This document shows positions 15,639-64,000 of a DNA stretch of 64,000 nucleotides, piece by piece. Position 1 is the first letter of the stretch. Each line of letters opens with the position of its first letter. A program made the position numbers and the translations under genes. The DNA is taken from NCBI RefSeq assembly GCF_030552475.1, contig NZ_JAUPED010000002.1, positions 124,001 to 188,000 on the forward strand, in the 5' to 3' direction. The notes beneath the pieces were generated by a model. That model saw only the letters and a list, made by a program, of their open reading frames with translations. It ran no database searches and had not been told where the DNA came from. This DNA comes from Mariniflexile sp. AS56. GTDB lineage: Bacteria > Bacteroidota > Bacteroidia > Flavobacteriales > Flavobacteriaceae.

Positions 15639-17243
15639 TTGTTTATATTCTCCAACCATATTAACATTAAAGGATTCTTTCTTATATGCTTCATCGTATA
15701 TAATATGACATGTGATGCCCAAAACAGAAAGAGAGAAAATTACATTCGCTTTGTAGACTCTGCCGATTATTATATTAATGATTACCCCAGTATAGCCAAA
15801 GCCTTCTTAGATTCTATTCCTCAACCTATTGAAAAAAAAATTAAAGGACGTCTTGCCGATTATTACGCCATTCAAGCATTGATATTTGATGAAGAGAGCG
15901 AGTATGCCCAGTTATATCAAAGTAATGTTTTAGCTGTAAAATATGCTGAAGAAGAGAAAAATTATGAGGTGGCCGGGGATGCTAGTTTAGAACTCTTTGT
16001 AAACCTCTTTTTCGCAAAAAGAGATACGATAGCCTATAGGTATTTAAATAAGGCAAAAGCCTATTATGAGTTAGATAAAAATGCCCACGGTCTTGTAGAA
16101 GTGAAGCAAATGTATGCTTATGTTGAGTTTTCTAATAGGAATTATAAGAAAAGTAATGAATTATTATTAAAGCATTTAGCCTCTTATAAAGCGATTAAAG
16201 AAGATGCTTATTTTTACATGTTTGCGACCTATATGCTTACTTTAAATTATGTTGAATTAGGTAATTTAAAAAAGGCATATGTCTATTTAAAAGAATTTGA
16301 AAGTTTAAAAAGTAACCCAACTATAGTAACTTATAATTTTTCTTCTTTTAAAGCAGATATTAATTTAGAGTTAGCAGCCTATTATTTAGAGCATGATAGG
16401 TTGGATTCCGTAGCACTACATTTAGATAAAGCAGCTAATTTTCGAAGTTATATGAGTGACGATTTGGCTAGAAAATATTTCAATCTAAGGGCAGACGTTT
16501 ACAGGTTTACCGGTAAAATTGAAGCGGCCAAAACGTATTTGGATTCTTTGGCTTTATTTGAGCAGAAAATGTTTAATAAAAACCTTGAAGCCAGTTTTAA
16601 TTTAAGTAATAATTTGGTTCAAGCAGAGAATCAATTAGATCAAGAAAGTGATAAGAAATTTAGAAACGGACTTTTGGCGGTTCTTTTATTTGGTTTGTTA
16701 GGGCTTTTAAGTGTTTGTTATCTGTTTTATTACAAAAGGCATCAATATAAATTAAACAACACTCTTAATAAGGTTAATAATTTAGCTTATTTAAAAGCAA
16801 ACAATGAAAAACTTACGGGTAAGGTTCTTGGCTTAGAAGAATATATCTTTAATTTAAAAAAGGAAGTTAAAGAAATCACCATGGAACGTGAAGCTCCTGT
16901 TCAGCGCGATAAAATAAAAGATTTATACAAAAACTTGTTGCATAATTCATCCACGCTTTTAGATAAAAGTGAAAACCATTTAGAGTTGGTTAATGATCTT
17001 AATGTTGATTTTTTCAATCATTTACAACCAAAATACCCTCAACTAAATGATTCAGAATTAATTATATGCTATTATTTATTTATGGATTTTAAAAGTAAAG
17101 AAATTGCCTTGTTTTTAAATAGCTCTGTAAGAGCATTAGAAAGCAAACGATACAGAATCTCCAAGAAAATTAAATTAAATACTAAGGAAACCTCTTTGGT
17201 AGACCATCTTAAAGAAACTTTTAAAGATGTTGAAATCGCATAA
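15639..17243 (+). CDS. TPR-containing membrane-anchored HTH regulator
   Basis: A 534-residue protein of a type common in flavobacteria. It has an N-terminal signal-like hydrophobic segment, a long stretch of TPR-like helices (about 60-310), one membrane helix (about 343-365, LLAVLLFGLLGLLSVCYLFY), a coiled-coil linker, and a C-terminal LuxR-like helix-turn-helix (about 465-515, ELIICYYLFMDFKSKEIALF). The layout suggests periplasmic TPRs that sense a partner, with DNA binding in the cytoplasm. No ATG precedes the signal segment; the frame starts at a TTG at 15639, so the start is uncertain. Targets unknown; the upstream lipoprotein and barrel genes are possible. Confidence 0.82.
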   Translation: MFIFSNHINIKGFFLICFIVYNMTCDAQNRKRENYIRFVDSADYYINDYPSIAKAFLDSIPQPIEKKIKGRLADYYAIQALIFDEESEYAQLYQSNVLAVKYAEEEKNYEVAGDASLELFVNLFFAKRDTIAYRYLNKAKAYYELDKNAHGLVEVKQMYAYVEFSNRNYKKSNELLLKHLASYKAIKEDAYFYMFATYMLTLNYVELGNLKKAYVYLKEFESLKSNPTIVTYNFSSFKADINLELAAYYLEHDRLDSVALHLDKAANFRSYMSDDLARKYFNLRADVYRFTGKIEAAKTYLDSLALFEQKMFNKNLEASFNLSNNLVQAENQLDQESDKKFRNGLLAVLLFGLLGLLSVCYLFYYKRHQYKLNNTLNKVNNLAYLKANNEKLTGKVLGLEEYIFNLKKEVKEITMEREAPVQRDKIKDLYKNLLHNSSTLLDKSENHLELVNDLNVDFFNHLQPKYPQLNDSELIICYYLFMDFKSKEIALFLNSSVRALESKRYRISKKIKLNTKETSLVDHLKETFKDVEIA

Positions 17244-17520
17244 ATCATACGATTTTTCTATTTATTTATAATTAAAGTAGGAAAAAAAATATAAAAATAA
17301 CAAATTTGAGGTGTGCGTAGTGAATGCGTAGTAGAAATACGCCTACAATTAAGAAGAATTCGCAATATTTGTATTGCTATTAATTAAATGACTGATTTAT
17401 CAGTAACCTTCAGACTTTTGTTTTTAAATGGTTGGAATTTGGTTAAATTATAAAGCTTTACACTTAGTAGTTTTACCAAAAAAGCAAAAGTCGTTATTGA
17501 CAAAAAAGTTTTAGGGATTT

Positions 17521-17550
17521 AAAAAGGAGCCTTCTTTGGGCTCCTTTTTT
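17521..17550 (+). terminator. Rho-independent terminator
   Basis: Stem of at least 10 bp (arm AAAAGGAGCC with GGCTCCTTTT), 7-base loop and T-tract. It would end either the TPR-HTH transcript (about 280 bases of 3' UTR) or a small RNA. Confidence 0.85.
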
Positions 17551-17670
17551 GTTTTTAATAAAGATTGCTAACTCCTATGGAATAGTATATATACACTTCT
17601 TAAAAGAGTTATGCCATTAAAGATAATGTAGAGAGTGAAGTATAAATACGGAATTGACTTTAAGTTAGGG

Positions 17671-17761
17671 TAAATTTGGTTGGTTAATTATTCTGTAATA
17701 GGAAAAACTCTCTACAGGTTTATAATCCCTTTTCATTTGTTTGAAAGGGGATTATTTTTTG
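17671..17761 (+). ncRNA. Candidate small RNA (about 75-80 nt)
   Basis: TAAATTTG at 17671-17678 is an exact TAnnTTTG box, with TTGAC at 17654-17658 upstream (spacing 14, shorter than usual). A 13-bp hairpin (17722-17734 with 17743-17755, one G-U pair) and T-run follow. A transcript starting near 17685 would be about 75 bases and has no coding frame. It is a prediction from signals only. Confidence 0.35.
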
Positions 17762-17875
17762 AATGGTTTGGGACTAATAAATACAGTGAAATTTGATAGC
17801 TACTTTTTATGAGTCTTAAAAGCTACGTTATAAGTAAATTGAATTGATTATATTTCAGTAGTTTAAAAGAATATA

Positions 17876-18259
17876 ATGACTAGAAAAATAATTGCTAAGC
17901 GCTATATAGATCACTTAGAAAGAGGAGATGTCAAAAAAATAATTGATTTGTTTAATGAAAACGGAGTTGTTCACTCGCCACTGTACGGAGTTAAAACAGC
18001 AAATGCGTTTTATAACGATTTGAGCAGGGATACTACAAATTCTGAACTTCGTCTTTTAGGAATTTTTGAAGACGACGATTCTAATCATTTAGCTTTATAT
18101 TTCACTTATATATGGACTTTAAAAAACAATAAAAAAGTAGAGTTTGATGTTGTTGATATTATTGAATTTGATATTCATAATAAAATCAATAAACTAAAGA
18201 TAATTTACGATACCGTTATTACTCGCGAGTTGGTAGGCCAATTATCAAATCAAATCTAG
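17876..18259 (+). CDS. NTF2/SnoaL-like protein
   Basis: A 127-residue small soluble protein of the nuclear-transport-factor-2-like fold. The N-terminus (AKRYIDHLERGDVKKIIDLF) and FNENGVVHSPLYGVKTA are typical of SnoaL-like domains, and the C-terminus has the expected strands (DVVDIIEFDIHNKINKLKII). No catalytic function can be assigned. It stands alone, with a long upstream gap, and is convergent with the DEAD-box helicase gene. Confidence 0.78.
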   Translation: MTRKIIAKRYIDHLERGDVKKIIDLFNENGVVHSPLYGVKTANAFYNDLSRDTTNSELRLLGIFEDDDSNHLALYFTYIWTLKNNKKVEFDVVDIIEFDIHNKINKLKIIYDTVITRELVGQLSNQI

Positions 18260-57136: not shown

Positions 57137-58363
57137 TTGAAAAATCACATAGCCATTTACATCACTAATAACGACGATAAACTTCAATTGATAGAACGCA
57201 TTCGTTCTGGTATGACTTTTGAAGATTTGAAACACTTAAAACATGCACTTTTTTCTGAAATTACGCTGAATAAGTTTATCGAAGAAGAAATGATTCATGG
57301 GCATTTTGATGTGCTTACCGAAACAAAAAACAGTTTGCTGCATTCATCGGAAGGCGAGCGTAAAAAGGCTTTGTTAAATCACATCATAGCACAAAAGCCC
57401 GATTATATTATTGCAGATAATGTGTTTGGTAATTTAGATGTCGAAAAACAAGCTGCTATTCAAAAAACACTCACAGATTTAAGCAGTAGCACCCGCATCA
57501 TTCAAATTACAAATAGAAAAGAAGAGATTTTACCATTTATAGAAACTACTTATAAATTACAAGACGCTGCGCTTGTTGTGTTTAACAGAACAGAAACTGC
57601 AAGTACAAACGAAGCCATAAACTTTGTTGAAGCCTTACCGCAACCCTATAGACCCATTTCAGAACACATCAACCCTTTAGTTAAATTCAATAAAGTGTCT
57701 GTAAGTTACCAGGAACGTGGCATTTTAAACGGTATTACATGGGAAATTAAACGCGGAGAGTTTTGGCAGTTACTCGGTGCCAATGGTTCGGGTAAAAGCA
57801 CCATGTTAAGCATGATTTATGGTGACAATCCCAAAGCATACGGGCAAGATATTACCTTGTTTGGTGTGAAAAAGGGGAGTGGAGAGAGTGTTTGGGATAT
57901 TAAAAGGAACATAGGCTATTTTTCATCGGAGATGTTACGCGGTTTTAAACGCTTAGATTCTATAGGGAATATGGTCGTGTCTGGGTTTTTCGATACCGTA
58001 GGCTTATATAAAACGCCCACCAACGAGCAAATTAAAATAACCGAACAATGGTTGCATGTGTTGCACATGTACGATATTAGGAAGCAAAGTTTCTTAGACC
58101 TATCAAAAGGACACCAACGTTTGGTATTAATAGCCAGAGCCATGGTAAAACACCCACCATTACTTATTTTAGACGAACCTACTAACGGACTAGACGATTT
58201 CGATGCCAAACTATTCTCCGAACTTATAAATAAAATAGCTAAAGAAACCGATACCGCTATTTTGTATGTCTCTCACCGCAAAGAAGCCGGTTTAAACCCA
58301 AGTTTTATTTACCAACTCACGCCAAACCCAACTGGTTCTACAGGAAAACAAGTAAATATTTAG
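57137..58363 (+). CDS. ABC ATPase of the ModF/PhrA type, first half degenerate
   Basis: A 408-residue soluble ATPase with two ABC halves. The second half is intact: Walker A GANGSGKST (about 213-221), signature DLSKGHQRLVL (in place of LSGGQ), Walker B LLILDEPTNGLD and the H-loop SHRKE. The first half has no Walker A but keeps SSEGERKKALL and a Walker-B-like YIIADNVFGNLD, so it is a decayed ABC domain. No membrane partner is nearby. Start is TTG at 57137. Role unknown; the ModF/PhrA label is by architecture. Confidence 0.85.
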   Translation: MKNHIAIYITNNDDKLQLIERIRSGMTFEDLKHLKHALFSEITLNKFIEEEMIHGHFDVLTETKNSLLHSSEGERKKALLNHIIAQKPDYIIADNVFGNLDVEKQAAIQKTLTDLSSSTRIIQITNRKEEILPFIETTYKLQDAALVVFNRTETASTNEAINFVEALPQPYRPISEHINPLVKFNKVSVSYQERGILNGITWEIKRGEFWQLLGANGSGKSTMLSMIYGDNPKAYGQDITLFGVKKGSGESVWDIKRNIGYFSSEMLRGFKRLDSIGNMVVSGFFDTVGLYKTPTNEQIKITEQWLHVLHMYDIRKQSFLDLSKGHQRLVLIARAMVKHPPLLILDEPTNGLDDFDAKLFSELINKIAKETDTAILYVSHRKEAGLNPSFIYQLTPNPTGSTGKQVNI

Positions 58364-58546
58364 TAGTATTTATATCTTATTGGTGTAGCGTAATTTTTTA
58401 CAGATTTAATTTTTATATTTACGGACGATGGTAATTTTAAACTAATTGTATCCTGATATGTTTATGGGGTGTGAGGGGGTGAAGTTACTATATAATATTG
58501 TTGTGCAACATTTAAGAAAAAAACTAACTTATAAAATATTTCAATT

Positions 58547-58813
58547 ATGCCAAAAGAATTAACTATACAAGATGTTGAAAGATTAGTTGATAAGTTTAAA
58601 ATTGAAAGATATACTTATCTCATTTTAATTGCTGCGTGTGCAATAATTATTTTAGTTGTAGCTGTAATTTCATTCATAAACGGAGACTGGAAAACTGCTC
58701 TATCACTAATGGCTCCAGGTGGTACGATTTTTTTCTGCCTTTCCCGTGTATTTAAAATTTGGGATGATATTATGAATGCTTTTTTCAATTTAAATAAAAA
58801 AAATGATGAGTAA
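58547..58813 (+). CDS. Small two-helix membrane protein of unknown function
   Basis: An 88-residue protein that I do not recognise. It has an N-terminal amphipathic segment, a long hydrophobic helix (YLILIAACAIIILVVAVISF), a loop with NGDWKTAL, a second shorter hydrophobic region (LMAPGGTIFFCLSRVF) and a basic/polar tail. Its end overlaps the next gene by 11 bases, so the two are coupled. A TAT-rich, poorly defined promoter and a TGTTG-TG-CAACA hairpin precede it. Confidence 0.65.
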   Translation: MPKELTIQDVERLVDKFKIERYTYLILIAACAIIILVVAVISFINGDWKTALSLMAPGGTIFFCLSRVFKIWDDIMNAFFNLNKKNDE

Positions 58814-59393
58814 AATAAATAAACAAATTCGTCAATTTACAGCAATCGGTATCTTCGCTACGTTAATTGGATATATGTTCTTAATATATCAATCTTATAA
58901 TTTACGCGATGATATAAATACAAAAAAGAATGAAGTACAACAACTTGAATCTTTAAGGGTAGAAAAAATCAAAGAATTGACTGAAATACAAAATCAAATT
59001 TTAGAAATCACATCAACATCTCAAGATACAAATACCGTAAAAAAGGGAGAAAAATTAGCAGAAGAAAGAGGAATCCCAATAGTAAATAGCTTTAAAGTTA
59101 CAACTAAACAAGAATCGAGTTTGTCTAAAGCGGAAGAATATGAAAAATTGGGCTTTCAATCAATTTTGGATAAGGATATAAACTCGTCTATTGATGCTTT
59201 TATAAAGAGTGAAAACGCATATAATGGTCGCAATGCGGTTTATGAAATTGCAAGATATTTAGTAAAAAACAAAAGTAAATTATCTGATAAAAATTCTGAT
59301 TACTGGCCAATTGTCTTCCAGACCATTCTCTCAAATTATAGTTGGAAAATGCCAGATAATTACAAAATAGAATTTAAAAATAGAGCGGAATAA
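58803..59393 (+). CDS. Membrane-anchored coiled-coil/TPR-like protein
   Basis: A 196-residue protein of unknown family: a basic N-terminus, one membrane helix (about 14-30, IGIFATLIGYMFLIYQS), a predicted coiled coil (about 32-72, many Glu, Gln and Leu), a linker, and a helical part resembling one or two TPRs (AEEYEKLGFQSILDKDINSSID). It is translated with the small membrane protein before it. The pair may form one membrane complex; function unknown. It ends directly in the cassette-type element. Confidence 0.68.
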   Translation: MMSKINKQIRQFTAIGIFATLIGYMFLIYQSYNLRDDINTKKNEVQQLESLRVEKIKELTEIQNQILEITSTSQDTNTVKKGEKLAEERGIPIVNSFKVTTKQESSLSKAEEYEKLGFQSILDKDINSSIDAFIKSENAYNGRNAVYEIARYLVKNKSKLSDKNSDYWPIVFQTILSNYSWKMPDNYKIEFKNRAE

Positions 59394-59603
59394 ACGTAGC
59401 ACAAGAACGTATAAAATAATAGGGCAATGAGTGCTTAACCCAATGGAAAAGGAACATTTTCGAAGTCGCCAAATTTTTAAATTTGGTTTTTTGAGAAAAA
59501 AAAGGATAATAAGAAAAATTTAAAAATTCGGCTTGTGTTTAACCTAATAGTAACTGTCTATTTTTAGTACTACTATTCTTATGCAAAAGCGTACCTACAA
59601 ACA
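59394..59603. repeat. Complex palindromic element, cassette-type (copy 1)
   Basis: Begins at the stop of the membrane gene with CGTAGCAC and GTATAAAATAATAGGG, holds a direct pair GTGCTTAACC (59431) / GTGTTTAACC (59535), an inner 17-base inverted repeat (59468-59484 with 59516-59532, one mismatch) and ends CTACTATTCTTATGC...GCGTACCTAC, roughly inverse to the beginning. A similar beginning follows the gajB stop at 62738. Confidence 0.6.
59469..59492 (+). terminator. Hairpin with T-run inside the element
   Basis: An 8-bp stem (59469-59476 with 59479-59486), 2-base loop and TTTTTT. It could end the membrane-module transcript, but it is also part of the larger palindrome. Confidence 0.45.
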
Positions 59604-59628
59604 ATAAAAAACAACCTCGACTAAACTT

Positions 59629-61311
59629 ATGGCAAAGATTTATAGTTTAAAAATCAAAAACTACAGAGGAATTGAAAAACTTGAGCAAGTTTTTGGTATT
59701 ACAGATTTCATCTGTTTAATCGGGCGAGGAGATTCAGGAAAATCAACTATTCTTGACGCTATTTCTAAAGTTCTATCTCCAATGTGGAATCAAACATTTT
59801 ATGATACAGATTTCTATAATGGAAATATTTCTAATCCAATTGAAATTGAGGCTTCACTATATGATTTACCAATTAGTTTGACTAATGAAAACAAATATGG
59901 GCTTTATATAAGAGGCTTAGATAAGGATACCAATATTATACATGATGACATAAAAGATGGTTGCGAAGAAATACTTACAATAAAATTAATAGTTGATAAA
60001 AATTTAGAGCCGAAATGGTCAATTGTTAATAACCGAGAAAATCAAGAAGCAATTGAAGTCAGAGCAAGCGATAGAGCTAAATTGAACGTGTTTTTAGTTT
60101 CAGATTATATAGATAAACACTTTTCTTGGAATAAAGGCAATCCATTGTATTCATTATTAAAACAAAATGATTCTAGTGATGAAAAAAATAATATAATACT
60201 TGATGCGTTTAGAGAAGCAAAACAAGAAATTGACACAAATTCATTCAATCATTTAGATGATACTGTAAAGAAAGTAGTAGATTCAGCCTCAAAATTGGGG
60301 GCAGATATTAAAGACACCACCACTACAACTATTGACTTTAAGGATATATCTATTAATGATCAAAGAATTAGTTTACATGATGATAAAATTCCTTTTAGAT
60401 TAAAAGGTAAAGGTTCTAAAAGAATAATTTCAATGGCTATCCAAACCGAATTATCAAAATTCGGAGGGATTTTGTTAATTGATGAAATAGAACAAGGGTT
60501 AGAACCGGATAGAGCACAGCATTTAGCCCAAACTTTAAAAAGAGATAATAAAGGCCAAATTTTTATAACAACACATTCTAGAGACGTATTAGTAGAATTG
60601 ACTACAACTGATTTATTCAGAGTAAAAAATAACTACAGTAAACTTTATGAATTTGACTCAACTTTACAAGGGTGCATTCGTAGTAATCCAGAGGCTTTCT
60701 TTAGTAATAAGGTTTTAGTCTGTGAAGGACCAACCGAAATAGGGTTTTGCAGAGGTTTAAATAATTATTTAATTACTGAAAAAGGTATTAATTCCGCTAT
60801 TAAAGGTGTTCGATTCGCTAACGGTGGAGGTTCAACTCAAATTGACTATACTAAAGCGTTTCTTAATGCAGGGTATAAAGTTTGTTTATTCTGTGACTCT
60901 GACGTACAGAAAATAAATGATGAAAAGAGTTCTCTCTCTTCTTTAGGTGTGACGATTATCGATAGTGATGACAAAAAAGCTATGGAAAATCACATTTTTG
61001 AAGATTTACCTTGGGATGCTATCAAAGAATTGATAGAATATAGAATAGAAGAAAAGGATGAGGATAGTGTTAAAGCATCAATAAATTCAAAATATAGATC
61101 AGAGTTAGGTGAAAACTGGAAAGATATAGATTCTAATGATTTAAGAGATGCAATTTATAAATCTTCAATTGTAAAAAATAAAGAGTGGTTTAAACGAACT
61201 GACCATGGAGAAGTTATTGGTAACATTAGCCTGAAATATAAACAGAAATTCCTTGATAAAAAATTGGGGAAACAAATTGACCAATTAATAAATTGGATTG
61301 AAAATGATTGA
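59629..61311 (+). CDS. gajA: GajA-like OLD-family ATPase/TOPRIM nuclease (Gabija)
   Basis: A 560-residue protein matching GajA of Gabija anti-phage systems in order and length (GajA about 578). Residues 31-40 hold Walker A (GRGDSGKST), 260-264 a signature-like KGKGSK, 282-286 Walker B (LLIDE), His316 the H-loop (TTHS). The TOPRIM part has VCEGPTE (Glu366) and CDSD (Asp423, Asp425) and a later DSDD. In Gabija this subunit nicks or cuts DNA when nucleotide levels fall. It overlaps gajB by 14 bases. Sequence is more AT-rich than nearby core genes. Confidence 0.9.
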   Translation: MAKIYSLKIKNYRGIEKLEQVFGITDFICLIGRGDSGKSTILDAISKVLSPMWNQTFYDTDFYNGNISNPIEIEASLYDLPISLTNENKYGLYIRGLDKDTNIIHDDIKDGCEEILTIKLIVDKNLEPKWSIVNNRENQEAIEVRASDRAKLNVFLVSDYIDKHFSWNKGNPLYSLLKQNDSSDEKNNIILDAFREAKQEIDTNSFNHLDDTVKKVVDSASKLGADIKDTTTTTIDFKDISINDQRISLHDDKIPFRLKGKGSKRIISMAIQTELSKFGGILLIDEIEQGLEPDRAQHLAQTLKRDNKGQIFITTHSRDVLVELTTTDLFRVKNNYSKLYEFDSTLQGCIRSNPEAFFSNKVLVCEGPTEIGFCRGLNNYLITEKGINSAIKGVRFANGGGSTQIDYTKAFLNAGYKVCLFCDSDVQKINDEKSSLSSLGVTIIDSDDKKAMENHIFEDLPWDAIKELIEYRIEEKDEDSVKASINSKYRSELGENWKDIDSNDLRDAIYKSSIVKNKEWFKRTDHGEVIGNISLKYKQKFLDKKLGKQIDQLINWIEND

Positions 61312-62737
61312 TTACAAAGAATTTGTTTCCAAAGAAAAAAGTATGTTAATTGCACCAGCTGGATTTGGTAAAACATATACTATATCAGAATGTTTAATTC
61401 ATCTAGAAGGGAAAGGAAAACAACTAATACTTACTCACACTCATGCAGGCGTAGCTTCTTTGAAGGAAAAATTCAAACAAAAAAAAATACATTCTTCTAA
61501 TTATAATATTGAAACTATAACGAGTTTTGCTCAAAAGTATGTACTTTCATTTTATACAGGAATAGACATACCTTCTCAGGAGAATAGTAAAGAATATTAT
61601 CCTTTCATAATAAATAAAGCTAATGAAATATTTAAATTAAAACTTATTAAGAATGTTATTTCAAGAACATACTCTGGCTTATTTGTAGACGAATATCAAG
61701 ACTGTACAACTCAACAGCATGAGTTAATCTCATCATTAGCTGATTTATTCCCGACTCATATTCTTGGTGATTACTTACAAGGAATCTTTGGTTTCAACGG
61801 TGAAGAACTTGTTGATATGCAAGCTGAGAATGATATGCTTGAATTTGCTAATAATCAGTATTCTTTAAATCAACCCCAACGTTGGCTAAGAGGAAATAAT
61901 AATAACTTAGGATTAGATCTAAAAAAAATCAGAGAATCTTTAATTAAGCAAGAAGAAGTTAATTTAGCTGAGTTTCCATCAATTGAAACATTTACTTTTG
62001 ATGAACGAGATTTATACATACCGTATAAGGACTATTATAAAGAAATAACGAAACTCTTGCAAGAAGAAAATTTATTGATTTTACATCCTGATTCCACAAG
62101 TATTTACCCAAGACTTAAATTAGTTAAGCAATTTAATAATCGTATAAAGTTAATTGAATCAATAGATGATAAAGACTTTTATAAAATAGCAAAAACAGCT
62201 GATGAAATTACAAATGAAAATATATTTTCTAAGTTAAAAGAGTTAAGCTATAAACTTTTTAATAAAACTGAGCTTGATAAGTGGTTTAATGAAAAAGGAT
62301 TTAAAAAGAAAAGAGAAGAAAAAGATCGTACATCTGTTAAGCATCTTGAGTCACTGATAAAAGAATTAAAAAATGATATTTCTTATAGTAAAATTTCTTG
62401 TTTTTTAATTGGAGTAAAAGAACTTCAAGGTATAAAATCCCACAGGAGAGAATTGTTTAGTTCATTTGTTAAATCTTTAAGAGAAGCAGATGAGAATAAA
62501 ATTTTAGTGTCATCTGCTATGTCAAATAATCGTAATTTAATCCGTAGAACTGGTCGTAAAGTATTTGGCAGATGTATCGGAACAACCTTATTAACAAAAG
62601 GGTTAGAGTTTGATACTGTTGCTATAATAAATGCCCATAAATTTAAGTGTCCTAAACATCTTTATGTTGCTTTAACAAGAGCGTCAAAAAAACTTTTAAT
62701 ATTCACGAATAAAATTGAGTTATTACCCTATAAATAA
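61298..62737 (+). CDS. gajB: GajB-like UvrD-type helicase (Gabija)
   Basis: A 479-residue superfamily 1 helicase, close in size to GajB (about 494). Walker A is APAGFGKTYT (about 19-28), the Walker B FVDEYQDCT (about 129-137), motif III LGDYLQGIFG, motif V LTKGLEFD and motif VI YVALTRASKK (about 455). It lacks UvrD's extra C-terminal domains. With GajA directly upstream and overlapping, a Gabija operon is the simplest reading; the ATPase probably senses DNA ends or nucleotide state. Start may also be ATG 61304. Confidence 0.88.
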   Translation: MKMIDYKEFVSKEKSMLIAPAGFGKTYTISECLIHLEGKGKQLILTHTHAGVASLKEKFKQKKIHSSNYNIETITSFAQKYVLSFYTGIDIPSQENSKEYYPFIINKANEIFKLKLIKNVISRTYSGLFVDEYQDCTTQQHELISSLADLFPTHILGDYLQGIFGFNGEELVDMQAENDMLEFANNQYSLNQPQRWLRGNNNNLGLDLKKIRESLIKQEEVNLAEFPSIETFTFDERDLYIPYKDYYKEITKLLQEENLLILHPDSTSIYPRLKLVKQFNNRIKLIESIDDKDFYKIAKTADEITNENIFSKLKELSYKLFNKTELDKWFNEKGFKKKREEKDRTSVKHLESLIKELKNDISYSKISCFLIGVKELQGIKSHRRELFSSFVKSLREADENKILVSSAMSNNRNLIRRTGRKVFGRCIGTTLLTKGLEFDTVAIINAHKFKCPKHLYVALTRASKKLLIFTNKIELLPYK

Positions 62738-62880
62738 AGCAAGCAAGTAACTATGTATAAAAAATATAGGGTGTTTGGAGCTAAATTCAAAGCCTGTGCA
62801 TATTAACAAAGTCTGCTAAATATAGATAATTCGTTTTTAATCGTGACGCTTTTCTTACATTGATCATAATCCATTAAAGA
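62738..62880. repeat. Cassette-type element, copy 2 (after gajB)
   Basis: GTATAAAAAATATAGGG at 62755-62771 matches GTATAAAATAATAGGG at 59409 with one indel, followed by GCTAAATTCAAAG (like GCTTAACCCAATGG) and CTGTGCATATTAAC (like CTTGTGTTTAACC). It starts right after the gajB stop, as copy 1 does after the membrane gene. The end is poorly defined. Confidence 0.5.
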
Positions 62881-62923
62881 AACTATAAGTCAACATCATA
62901 ATATAAATCTTAAAATTATAATC

Positions 62924-63348
62924 ATAAAATCTTTAATAACCATTCTATTTACAATCCTTTTATCTCTTCTTTATACATGTTGTGATAACAAAAAATCAAA
63001 AAAAAATAGTGAAAGAAATTTTATGAGTAATGAATTAATAGGAAAGTGGAATTAAGTGAGTACGGACAAATCATTAAATGATAATGGCTCTAAAATTGAA
63101 TCGATATAATTTGTTAACGCTTCAATTGCAGAAATTCAACTAATCCATTCTATCGAGAAAAGAGTTGTGATTGGGAAATGGACTAACGGATTTAATAAAG
63201 AATTAGGAAGTTTAAATTTAGACTTTGAACCTAATATTAAAATAACTTATAATATAGACAAAAATAATAGGACCATTATACTGTTAGATATATCAGAAGA
63301 AAAAAAATAGTCATGAATGGAGGTGAATTAAGGTTTGAAAAAGAATAA
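62924..63348 (+). pseudogene. Decayed lipoprotein gene
   Basis: A reading frame of 129 codons encodes a lipoprotein-like protein: hydrophobic start (KSLITILFTILLSLLYTCC, with a lipobox-like Cys), an SNELIGKW start of the mature part, and a later WTNGFNKELGSLNLDFE. It resembles lipocalin-like lipoproteins. The expected start ATG reads ATA (62924), and stops occur in frame at 63053, 63107 and 63308, with a frame change after that (GGELRFEKE ends at 63348). It is clearly a broken gene. Parent family is uncertain. Confidence 0.75.
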
Positions 63349-63530
63349 AAAAAACGGGCTATAATACAGTATATAAAAAATGACTAGTTTTATCTTAACA
63401 AATGTGAGTTACTTTGTTTGCTAGCATCTGATTTTCTTTAGGAAAATCCTCGCACATAAACACACAACTTGCCATATATAAACGTTGCAAAACATTATGC
63501 CCCGTCCTAAAAATAAACAACAAAACAATC
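63349..63530. other. Intergenic, possible third cassette-type element
   Basis: Contains GTATATAAAAAATGA (63369-63383), partly like the GTATAAAA starts of the other elements, and a perfect 7-bp hairpin GATTTTC-TTTAG-GAAAATC near 63429-63447. Ends with CGTTGCAAAACATTATGC before the lipoprotein ATG. No gene. Confidence 0.35.
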
Positions 63531-64000
63531 ATGAATAAAACCCTAAAGCAAGCTTGTATCCTCCTTATATTCTCCTGTGTTTTGGTCAGTTGCAATAGCA
63601 ATCAAAAAACCAATATTTTTGAATTAGAACAAGGGGATTTACTGTTTCAAAATACGGGAACAGGAGAAATAGATAATGCGATTAAAGATGTAACAGCTAC
63701 GTCTTTTTCTAAAAACTATTCGCATGTAGGGATGGCAATGCAAAAAGATGACAAATGGTTTGTCGTGGAGGCGATTCCAAAACAAGGCATTTGCCAAACG
63801 CCTTTAATAAAGTTTTTGAACAGGAATAAAAATAAATTCAATAAATCTCAAACCACGGTTGCAAGACTGGATAGCTATTACCAGCCCTATATTTCTAAAG
63901 CAATAGCGTATGGAATGGAAAGAATCAATACACCTTATGATGAGATTTTTCTATGGAATGACGATTCTTATTATTGCTCTGAATTAGTTTATAAAATGTT
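63531..64000 (+). CDS. YiiX/YebB-like lipoprotein hydrolase (3' end outside window)
   Basis: A partial protein, 156 codons to the window edge. The start is ATG 63531 with a lipoprotein signal (KQACILLIFSCVLVSC). The mature part is a permuted papain-fold (YiiX/NlpC-P60 like) hydrolase: LEQGDLLFQNTG, then SKNYSHVGMA with the active His, and YYCSELVYK with the active Cys, at the edge. It may cut peptidoglycan peptides or a lipid at the cell envelope. It is preceded by a broken lipoprotein gene, so it may be the next cassette of the accessory region. Confidence 0.88.
   Translation, partial: MNKTLKQACILLIFSCVLVSCNSNQKTNIFELEQGDLLFQNTGTGEIDNAIKDVTATSFSKNYSHVGMAMQKDDKWFVVEAIPKQGICQTPLIKFLNRNKNKFNKSQTTVARLDSYYQPYISKAIAYGMERINTPYDEIFLWNDDSYYCSELVYKM

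Follow-up and report, generated by a model that had tools for sequence, protein, structure and literature searches.

The 64,000-nucleotide stretch of the Mariniflexile sp. AS56 genome analyzed here (contig NZ_JAUPED010000002.1, positions 124,001 to 188,000; the whole stretch is called the window below) carries two overlapping genes near its end, gajA and gajB. Judged by their sequences, they are a two-gene Gabija anti-phage operon of a divergent lineage. Our favoured explanation, to which we give a probability of about 0.8, is that this divergent system arrived as an integron-like cassette and that the window copy is probably stranded. Gabija itself would be ordinary here, while its carrier looks like an unrecognised variant of the integron. 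We hold it somewhat better than an even bet that the carrier represents a widespread, overlooked integron-like system of Flavobacteriaceae-type bacteria. This system would have arrays of up to about 70 cassettes, attC-like bottom-strand hairpins and a Xer-like integrase lacking the IntI-specific insertion (I2), with anti-phage cassettes, including Gabija, among its cargo.

The gene gajA (59629..61311, plus strand) starts with ATG and encodes a putative class 2 OLD ATPase with a TOPRIM nuclease, 560 amino acids (aa) long. The gene gajB (61304..62737, plus strand) encodes a UvrD-like helicase of 477 aa from ATG at 61304, or of 479 aa if TTG at 61298 is the start. Both open reading frames (ORFs) are present in the ORF list at the place given by the initial annotation of this DNA. 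Its overlap of 14 bases holds only with the TTG start; the likelier ATG leaves 8 bases, the same overlap as annotated in three plasmid relatives.

In PADLOC, GajA matched the GajA model PDLC04168 with 600 bits (E 9.3e-181, residues 1-559) and GajB matched PDLC04173 with 433 bits (E 4.4e-130). Pfam recognised AAA_21/AAA_15 and OLD-like_TOPRIM in the first protein and UvrD-helicase in the second; no NCBIfam model scored above its cut-off for either. The initial annotation had allowed that the first gene might prove closer to another OLD system, such as PARIS or a stand-alone OLD. This candidate was rejected, as the best non-Gabija models, AriA (82.5 bits) and Old (75.8 bits), fell far short of the 600 bits of the GajA model. 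An OLD-type ABC ATPase followed by TOPRIM, a GajB-type UvrD-like helicase directly downstream and conserved catalytic residues, by which Gabija is recognised, are all found at the locus. E366, D423 and D425, named earlier as TOPRIM residues, are indeed invariant across the aligned relatives, together with E370, E453 and K522. By our reading of order and motif, E366/E370/D423/D425/K522 correspond to E379/E383/D432/D434/K541 of B. cereus (numbering from the parts of PMC10781630 and PMC10822852 consulted). The operon resembles Gabija of B. cereus VD045, as described in the same excerpts, in gene order, gene lengths, the combination of OLD ATPase-TOPRIM with a UvrD-like helicase, and catalytic residues. 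It differs in belonging to a separate lineage of PADLOC models and in having 16% identity in the structural alignment to GajA.

The structural comparisons point the same way, with reservations. A profile of 11 GajA relatives found B. cereus GajA as its best match in the PDB (E 2e-19), followed by the class 1 OLD nuclease of T. scotoductus (6P74) at 2e-18. The latter shares the ATPase-TOPRIM fold of our GajA, but its match is slightly weaker, and class 1 OLD nucleases are described as stand-alone enzymes without a helicase in the portion of PMC10568477 used here. A profile of 9 GajB relatives found B. cereus GajB (E 1.2e-13), and the AlphaFold model of GajA, with a mean predicted local distance difference test (pLDDT) score of 80.6, was matched best by GajA 8x5i in Foldseek (1.5e-17). 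In this model, helices 462-475, 478-486 and 503-513 lie between D425 and K522 and are candidates for the class 2 helical insert in TOPRIM. PADLOC, Pfam, the PDB profile search and the GajA fold search all back the earlier Gabija call. Against it stand the single-sequence searches of the PDB, in which GajA did not find B. cereus GajA and GajB did not find any GajB chain at E ≤10, so that a family profile was needed in both cases. The AlphaFold model of GajB (mean pLDDT 83.8) was also closer to UvrD/Rep structures, with GajB at rank 21.

How far does this operon stand from the Bacillus type? Two B. cereus-type GajA proteins from plasmids, retrieved by searching with part of the B. cereus sequence, reached 795 and 761 bits with PDLC00081 but 64 and 81 with PDLC04168. 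Conversely, the window GajA and three plasmid relatives scored 511-679 bits to PDLC04168, and PDLC00081 was not among the models listed for them. This opposite pattern marks a separate lineage (PDLC04168/04173), distinct from the Bacillus cereus type and already modelled in PADLOC as Gabija, and agrees with the earlier description of a divergent member. The operon thereby adds a divergent Gabija lineage, and the matches listed include no solved structure of it. If the system behaves as in B. cereus VD045, GajA (ATPase and TOPRIM endonuclease) would form a tetramer, GajB (SF1 helicase) would join it in a 4:4 complex, and this complex would cut phage DNA once nucleotide control is relieved.

The nearest relatives of GajA were found in Winogradskyella undariae (94%), Mucilaginibacter (56%), Pontibacter (51%) and a Planctomycetota metagenome-assembled genome (50%), and in all four an open gajB lies beside gajA. 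The block common to the window and W. undariae (NZ_JABTEL010000033.1, here L004) occupies 59622..62764 on the plus strand, with 94.1% identity over 3143 bp. It begins 7 nucleotides (nt) before gajA and ends 27 nt after gajB. Because it holds both genes and next to nothing else, we take it as the unit that moved.

In the W. undariae contig the genes sit between repeated palindromic sites, a cassette setting that the initial annotation did not mention. In integrons, a cassette's attC opens with bases (R'') that are the reverse complement of those with which the cassette begins. The ends of the W. undariae gajAB obey this rule, its own R'' being the reverse complement of the first bases of the cassette. 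When the comparison was anchored on GTT, the own match measured 10, 9 and 9 nt in the three site-bounded cassettes of L004, the last of which is gajAB. By comparison, 12 swaps within L004 gave at most 4 nt, and 4 of 1640 mismatched pairs reached at least 9 nt. Anchoring clearly separated three of the four L004 genes; scoring by the longest match without it was noisy in AT-rich DNA (at least 8 nt in 5/31 own pairs versus 72/874 mismatched ones). The operon would thus have come to flavobacteria as a single cassette belonging to an integron-like system.

The same organization recurs across both genomes. The 5' arm of the site, at ≤3 mismatches, has 114 matches in the W. undariae genome and 25 in that of the window, with 0 for the reversed control in both. 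Among cassettes of 250-6000 nt between neighbouring sites, taken from stretches of these two genomes, the rule held over at least 8 nt in 67 of 86, compared with 150 of 7310 mismatched pairs (2.1%). The complementary stretch consists of the first 8-10 bases of the cassette set against the bases that open its own attC-like site. This count keeps the single pair from L004, which scored 4 owing to a one-base offset of its R''. Of the 21 cassettes on five array contigs from the window's genome, 17 follow the rule over at least 7 nt. Stretch L145 obeys it poorly (2/9). The rule extends to other genera, with 41/52 cassettes versus 89/2652 mismatched pairs in genome G045 and 8/12 versus 8/132 in G019, under the same length limits for cassettes.

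The sites themselves are conserved. In 74 sites with both arms, the arms read AACACCGTGTATAATTAATTGCT and CCACGCAACTAACCATACACAA.CACGTT, and the median arm-to-arm length is 125 nt. The bottom strand folds more stably in 73 of these 74 sites, against 22 of 69 stretches of control DNA, and in 55 of the 56 sites with both arms from G045 and G019. When five single elements were folded as top strand, one z-score was strong (-2.84) and the other four were weak; the comparison of strands is the informative test. The relatives' arrays therefore show both the R''/cassette-start rule and the bottom-strand folding by which integrons are recognised, and the rule also appears in the arrays of the window's genome. 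Seven cassettes lacked an ORF of at least 50 aa; of the other 78, 73 had theirs reading along the site. Across 100 genomes of the window's family the site arm was found in 69, with at least 20 copies in 11, and control matches numbered 2 in all.

Proteins of 75 of these 78 cassettes, the three short ones being omitted, were scanned for known families. PADLOC at E 1e-10 recognised bSEFIR, PDC-M50B, a Thoeris ThsB-like protein and an RT-associated SLATT, one each, and Pfam recognised two ParE-type toxins and one Mrr-type nuclease. Since a few cassettes resemble defence genes, the arrays may serve as a defence reservoir. If anti-phage genes, Gabija included, do travel as cassettes, this would explain how the operon passes from one marine bacterium to another with nothing but its two genes.

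Integrases were found at the heads of several arrays. Genome G045 is a single contig, and each of its two detected integrases heads a same-orientation array, one with 68 sites over ~69 kb. The sole integrase found in G019, also a single contig, heads a same-orientation array across a 2-kb gap, making 3 of 3 detected integrases in these two genomes. An integrase also adjoins attC-like arms in W. undariae, G004 and G005. The W. undariae integrase (L142) is best described in NCBIfam by the XerA model NF040815 (229 bits, above cut-off), and its best PDB match is a probable XerC-like recombinase, 4a8e. All three integrases scanned with the IntI model TIGR02249 (cut-off 265 bits) fell below it, with 201.6 bits for L142, 205.0 for L118 and 186.9 for L117. 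Where IntI4 has 68 residues in the I2 region, the W. undariae enzyme has 25, and none of six aligned array-adjacent integrases contains the I2 insertion. Perhaps these enzymes never acquired it. From their position and architecture, such a Xer-like integrase at the array head would cut and join folded bottom-strand attC-like hairpins.

Agreement between integrases and sites across genomes is loose at E 1e-60, with an integrase in 7 of 11 genomes that have at least 20 site matches versus 9 of 31 that have none. With a cut-off of E ≤1e-120, picked after seeing the list, sites were present in 16/17 genomes with a strong integrase match against 53/83 of the others (Fisher p 0.019). Genome G050 has 81 site-arm matches and no integrase at E 1e-60, so that its integrase may be more distant or its arrays may lack one. 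A second attC-like array in G019 (C1:2215221-2261034) has no integrase of the searched type beside it. A small cysteine-rich gene (119-127 aa) lies divergent from the integrase at L142:6170-6553 and L117:722-1081, and also in L116, L118, L122 and L123. The proteins of L142 and L117 have no Pfam or NCBIfam match; a partner or regulator of the integrase is one possible role.

The arrays and their integrases can be compared with integrons and with Xer recombinases. As in integrons described in the sections of the IntegronFinder 2.0 paper available to us (PMC9024848), there are cassette arrays, the R''/cassette-start rule, attC-like hairpins with bottom-strand bias and an integrase at the array head. 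Unlike integrons, the arrays have characteristic long conserved arms, and the integrase reads in the direction of the cassettes and has no IntI-specific insertion. The W. undariae enzyme resembles XerA/XerC/XerD in the matches given above; these integrases differ from Xer in carrying ~90-130 extra N-terminal residues and in standing at array heads. In the passages seen of PMC9668308 and PMC7790495, IntI is defined by its additional domain, which is also regarded as what enabled single-strand recombination.

Could the arrays be classical integrons, in which a true IntI with I2 acts on the sites and the Xer-like neighbour is incidental? Integrons have been reported from Bacteroidota (PMC8618304 and PMC9668308, in the parts seen). 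Moreover NF040815, the model for site-specific tyrosine recombinase/integron integrase, is matched by three of six recombinases (L142, L118 and L125), two of which, L142 and L118, adjoin attC-like arms. However, no match at the IntI cut-off came from the W. undariae genome or from the genus (six genomes, with that of the window among them), in a scan that could miss a split match and that covered neither G045 nor G019. The six array-adjacent integrases without the insertion also speak against this explanation, and we consider it unlikely.

The integron-like cassette must further be weighed at the window locus itself, where several observations count against it. No intact attC-like site flanks the window gajAB. 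The 5' arm at ≤5 mismatches has one match in the window, on the minus strand at 58554 and inside a gene, and the 3' arm has none at ≤8 mismatches. The cassette rule fails here, as it does in the congener array L113 and, with GTT anchoring, in the fourth gene of L004 near the contig end; neither L113 nor the window region is separated by anchoring. The window's genome also lacks an integrase of this type at E 1e-60. We read the failure of the rule in L113 and in the window region as probable decay, and the traces of cassette ends are consistent with this. Upstream of gajA, about 60 nt (59572..59631, plus strand) align to the end of the attC-like site and the cassette start that precede gajA in L004. 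They would be a decayed cassette start with a remnant of the upstream attC-like 3' arm, and the GTT core has lost a T. For a 52-nt segment of this alignment, 5 of 500 shuffles scored equally or higher. Downstream, 27 nt (62738..62764, plus strand) align to L004 and are probably what is left of the attC-like site belonging to the cassette itself, with R'' and the beginning of the 5' arm. Because both ends look decayed, the window copy is read as a stranded former cassette, probably no longer mobile.

An ordinary Gabija operon spread by generic horizontal transfer is also conceivable, the nearby repeats being unrelated flavobacterial intergenic elements and the cassette-end match a matter of chance. 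This fits the window, where no intact site was found, and relatives of the lineage occur on plasmids as well (arrays were not looked for there). We judge it improbable, since the ends of gajAB in L004 match by the very rule followed in 67 of 86 cassettes and since, on either side of the window operon, weak homology to L004 continues into an attC-like arm. That the repeats are instead mobile palindromes or transcription terminators inserting behind genes, as their palindromic, intergenic and widespread nature and the existence of related elements with other loops might suggest, is very doubtful, because a lone moving palindrome leaves unexplained the reverse complementarity with the own cassette, far above mismatched pairs, and because each array keeps one orientation followed by its cassette ORFs, an integrase stands at the array head and Rfam has no family match in the four loci scanned.

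What matters most here is the carrier. In the part of PMC9024848 consulted, the 2022 survey with IntegronFinder 2.0 reports a complete integron within Bacteroidetes, that of Salinibacter ruber M1, and the earlier IntegronFinder survey is cited for Bacteroidetes integrases only, without sites; yet the site arm is present in more than two thirds of the family genomes searched. Should these sites be recombined by a Xer-like enzyme that lacks I2, the account in which I2 gave single-strand recombination, as put forward in the text seen of PMC7790495, would need revision, and a natural relative intermediate between Xer and IntI would be open to direct study. Among the matches listed from the open-access literature, no title or abstract opening dealt with flavobacterial attC arrays or with I2-less array integrases; subscription journals and preprints fell mostly outside this search, so priority is not established.

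The lineage is rare among genomes related to the window's own. GajA of the window lineage was detected in one of 99 relatives at E 1e-20 and in one of 395 genomes across the phylum at E 1e-60, both times the window's own genome. Six plasmid loci were examined of 314 records. In five of them an annotated helicase/ATPase gene overlaps the end of gajA, truncated in L009, and in L013 there is just a smaller ATP-binding gene further on (its gene table is incomplete). The GajB partner is thus kept in most relatives looked at. Phage carriage was considered and rejected: 50,697 phage records gave no match, and a scan of viral contigs with the window GajA confirmed none. Scans of viral contigs at the family level gave two distant relatives for GajA and 80 loci for GajB, near full length in one (L017); the gajAB pair is open in L015 and L017, and gajB is split in L016. 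Plasmid relatives lie next to Shedu (L014:1792-3231), type I restriction-modification (L012:7287-9716) and a DNA methyltransferase gene (L011:7712-8812).

The surroundings of the operon are variable in the genus. After the conserved ABC gene that precedes the window Gabija, five congeners carry other genes within the ~18 kb examined, and one regains synteny after 2.3 kb, compared with ~13 kb in the window genome; none of the five offers a clean empty site. In the congener G005 the same ABC gene is followed by eighteen small ORFs, 17 of them on one strand, with degenerate attC-like repeats (L113:8388-19390), a region resembling a cassette array that has decayed.

Two overlapping small membrane genes (88 and 196 aa) lie upstream of the operon at 58547..59393 on the plus strand, and their products have no family above the curated cut-offs of PADLOC, Pfam or NCBIfam. 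The suggestion that such neighbours might be accessory proteins of the system found no support. They lie outside the 94% block and the Gabija unit, the four nearest relatives showed no such genes in their ORF lists, and the 196-aa gene occurs in one of 60 genomes, the window's own. As a cassette the pair is a weak candidate and was set aside, its match being 6 nt unanchored and 3 nt when GTT-anchored. Behind it, an intergenic element at 59414..59542 (plus strand) is 71% similar to elements of the L113 gene array and may be a decayed cassette site. Another match, at 63415..63491 (plus strand), is to the first attC-like element of L004, at its start (79 columns, 79.7%) and also resembles elements of congeners.

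The AT-rich setting reported earlier is borne out, with a G+C content of 0.282-0.301 at 58001-64000 versus 0.314-0.405 elsewhere in the window, apart from one other low bin (0.284 at 16001-18000). A decayed gene next to the operon, as the initial annotation proposed, is plausible from the sequence; the window's ORF list has no plus-strand ORF of at least 60 aa between 62738 and 63530. Small ORFs that read as HNH-like follow gajB at L004:5425-5721 and L006:11148-11636, and none does so in the window. Further downstream, at 63531-64000 (L003:6532-7209), lies a gene for a C92-type (YiiX-like) peptidase lipoprotein, which is found in one of six genomes of the genus.

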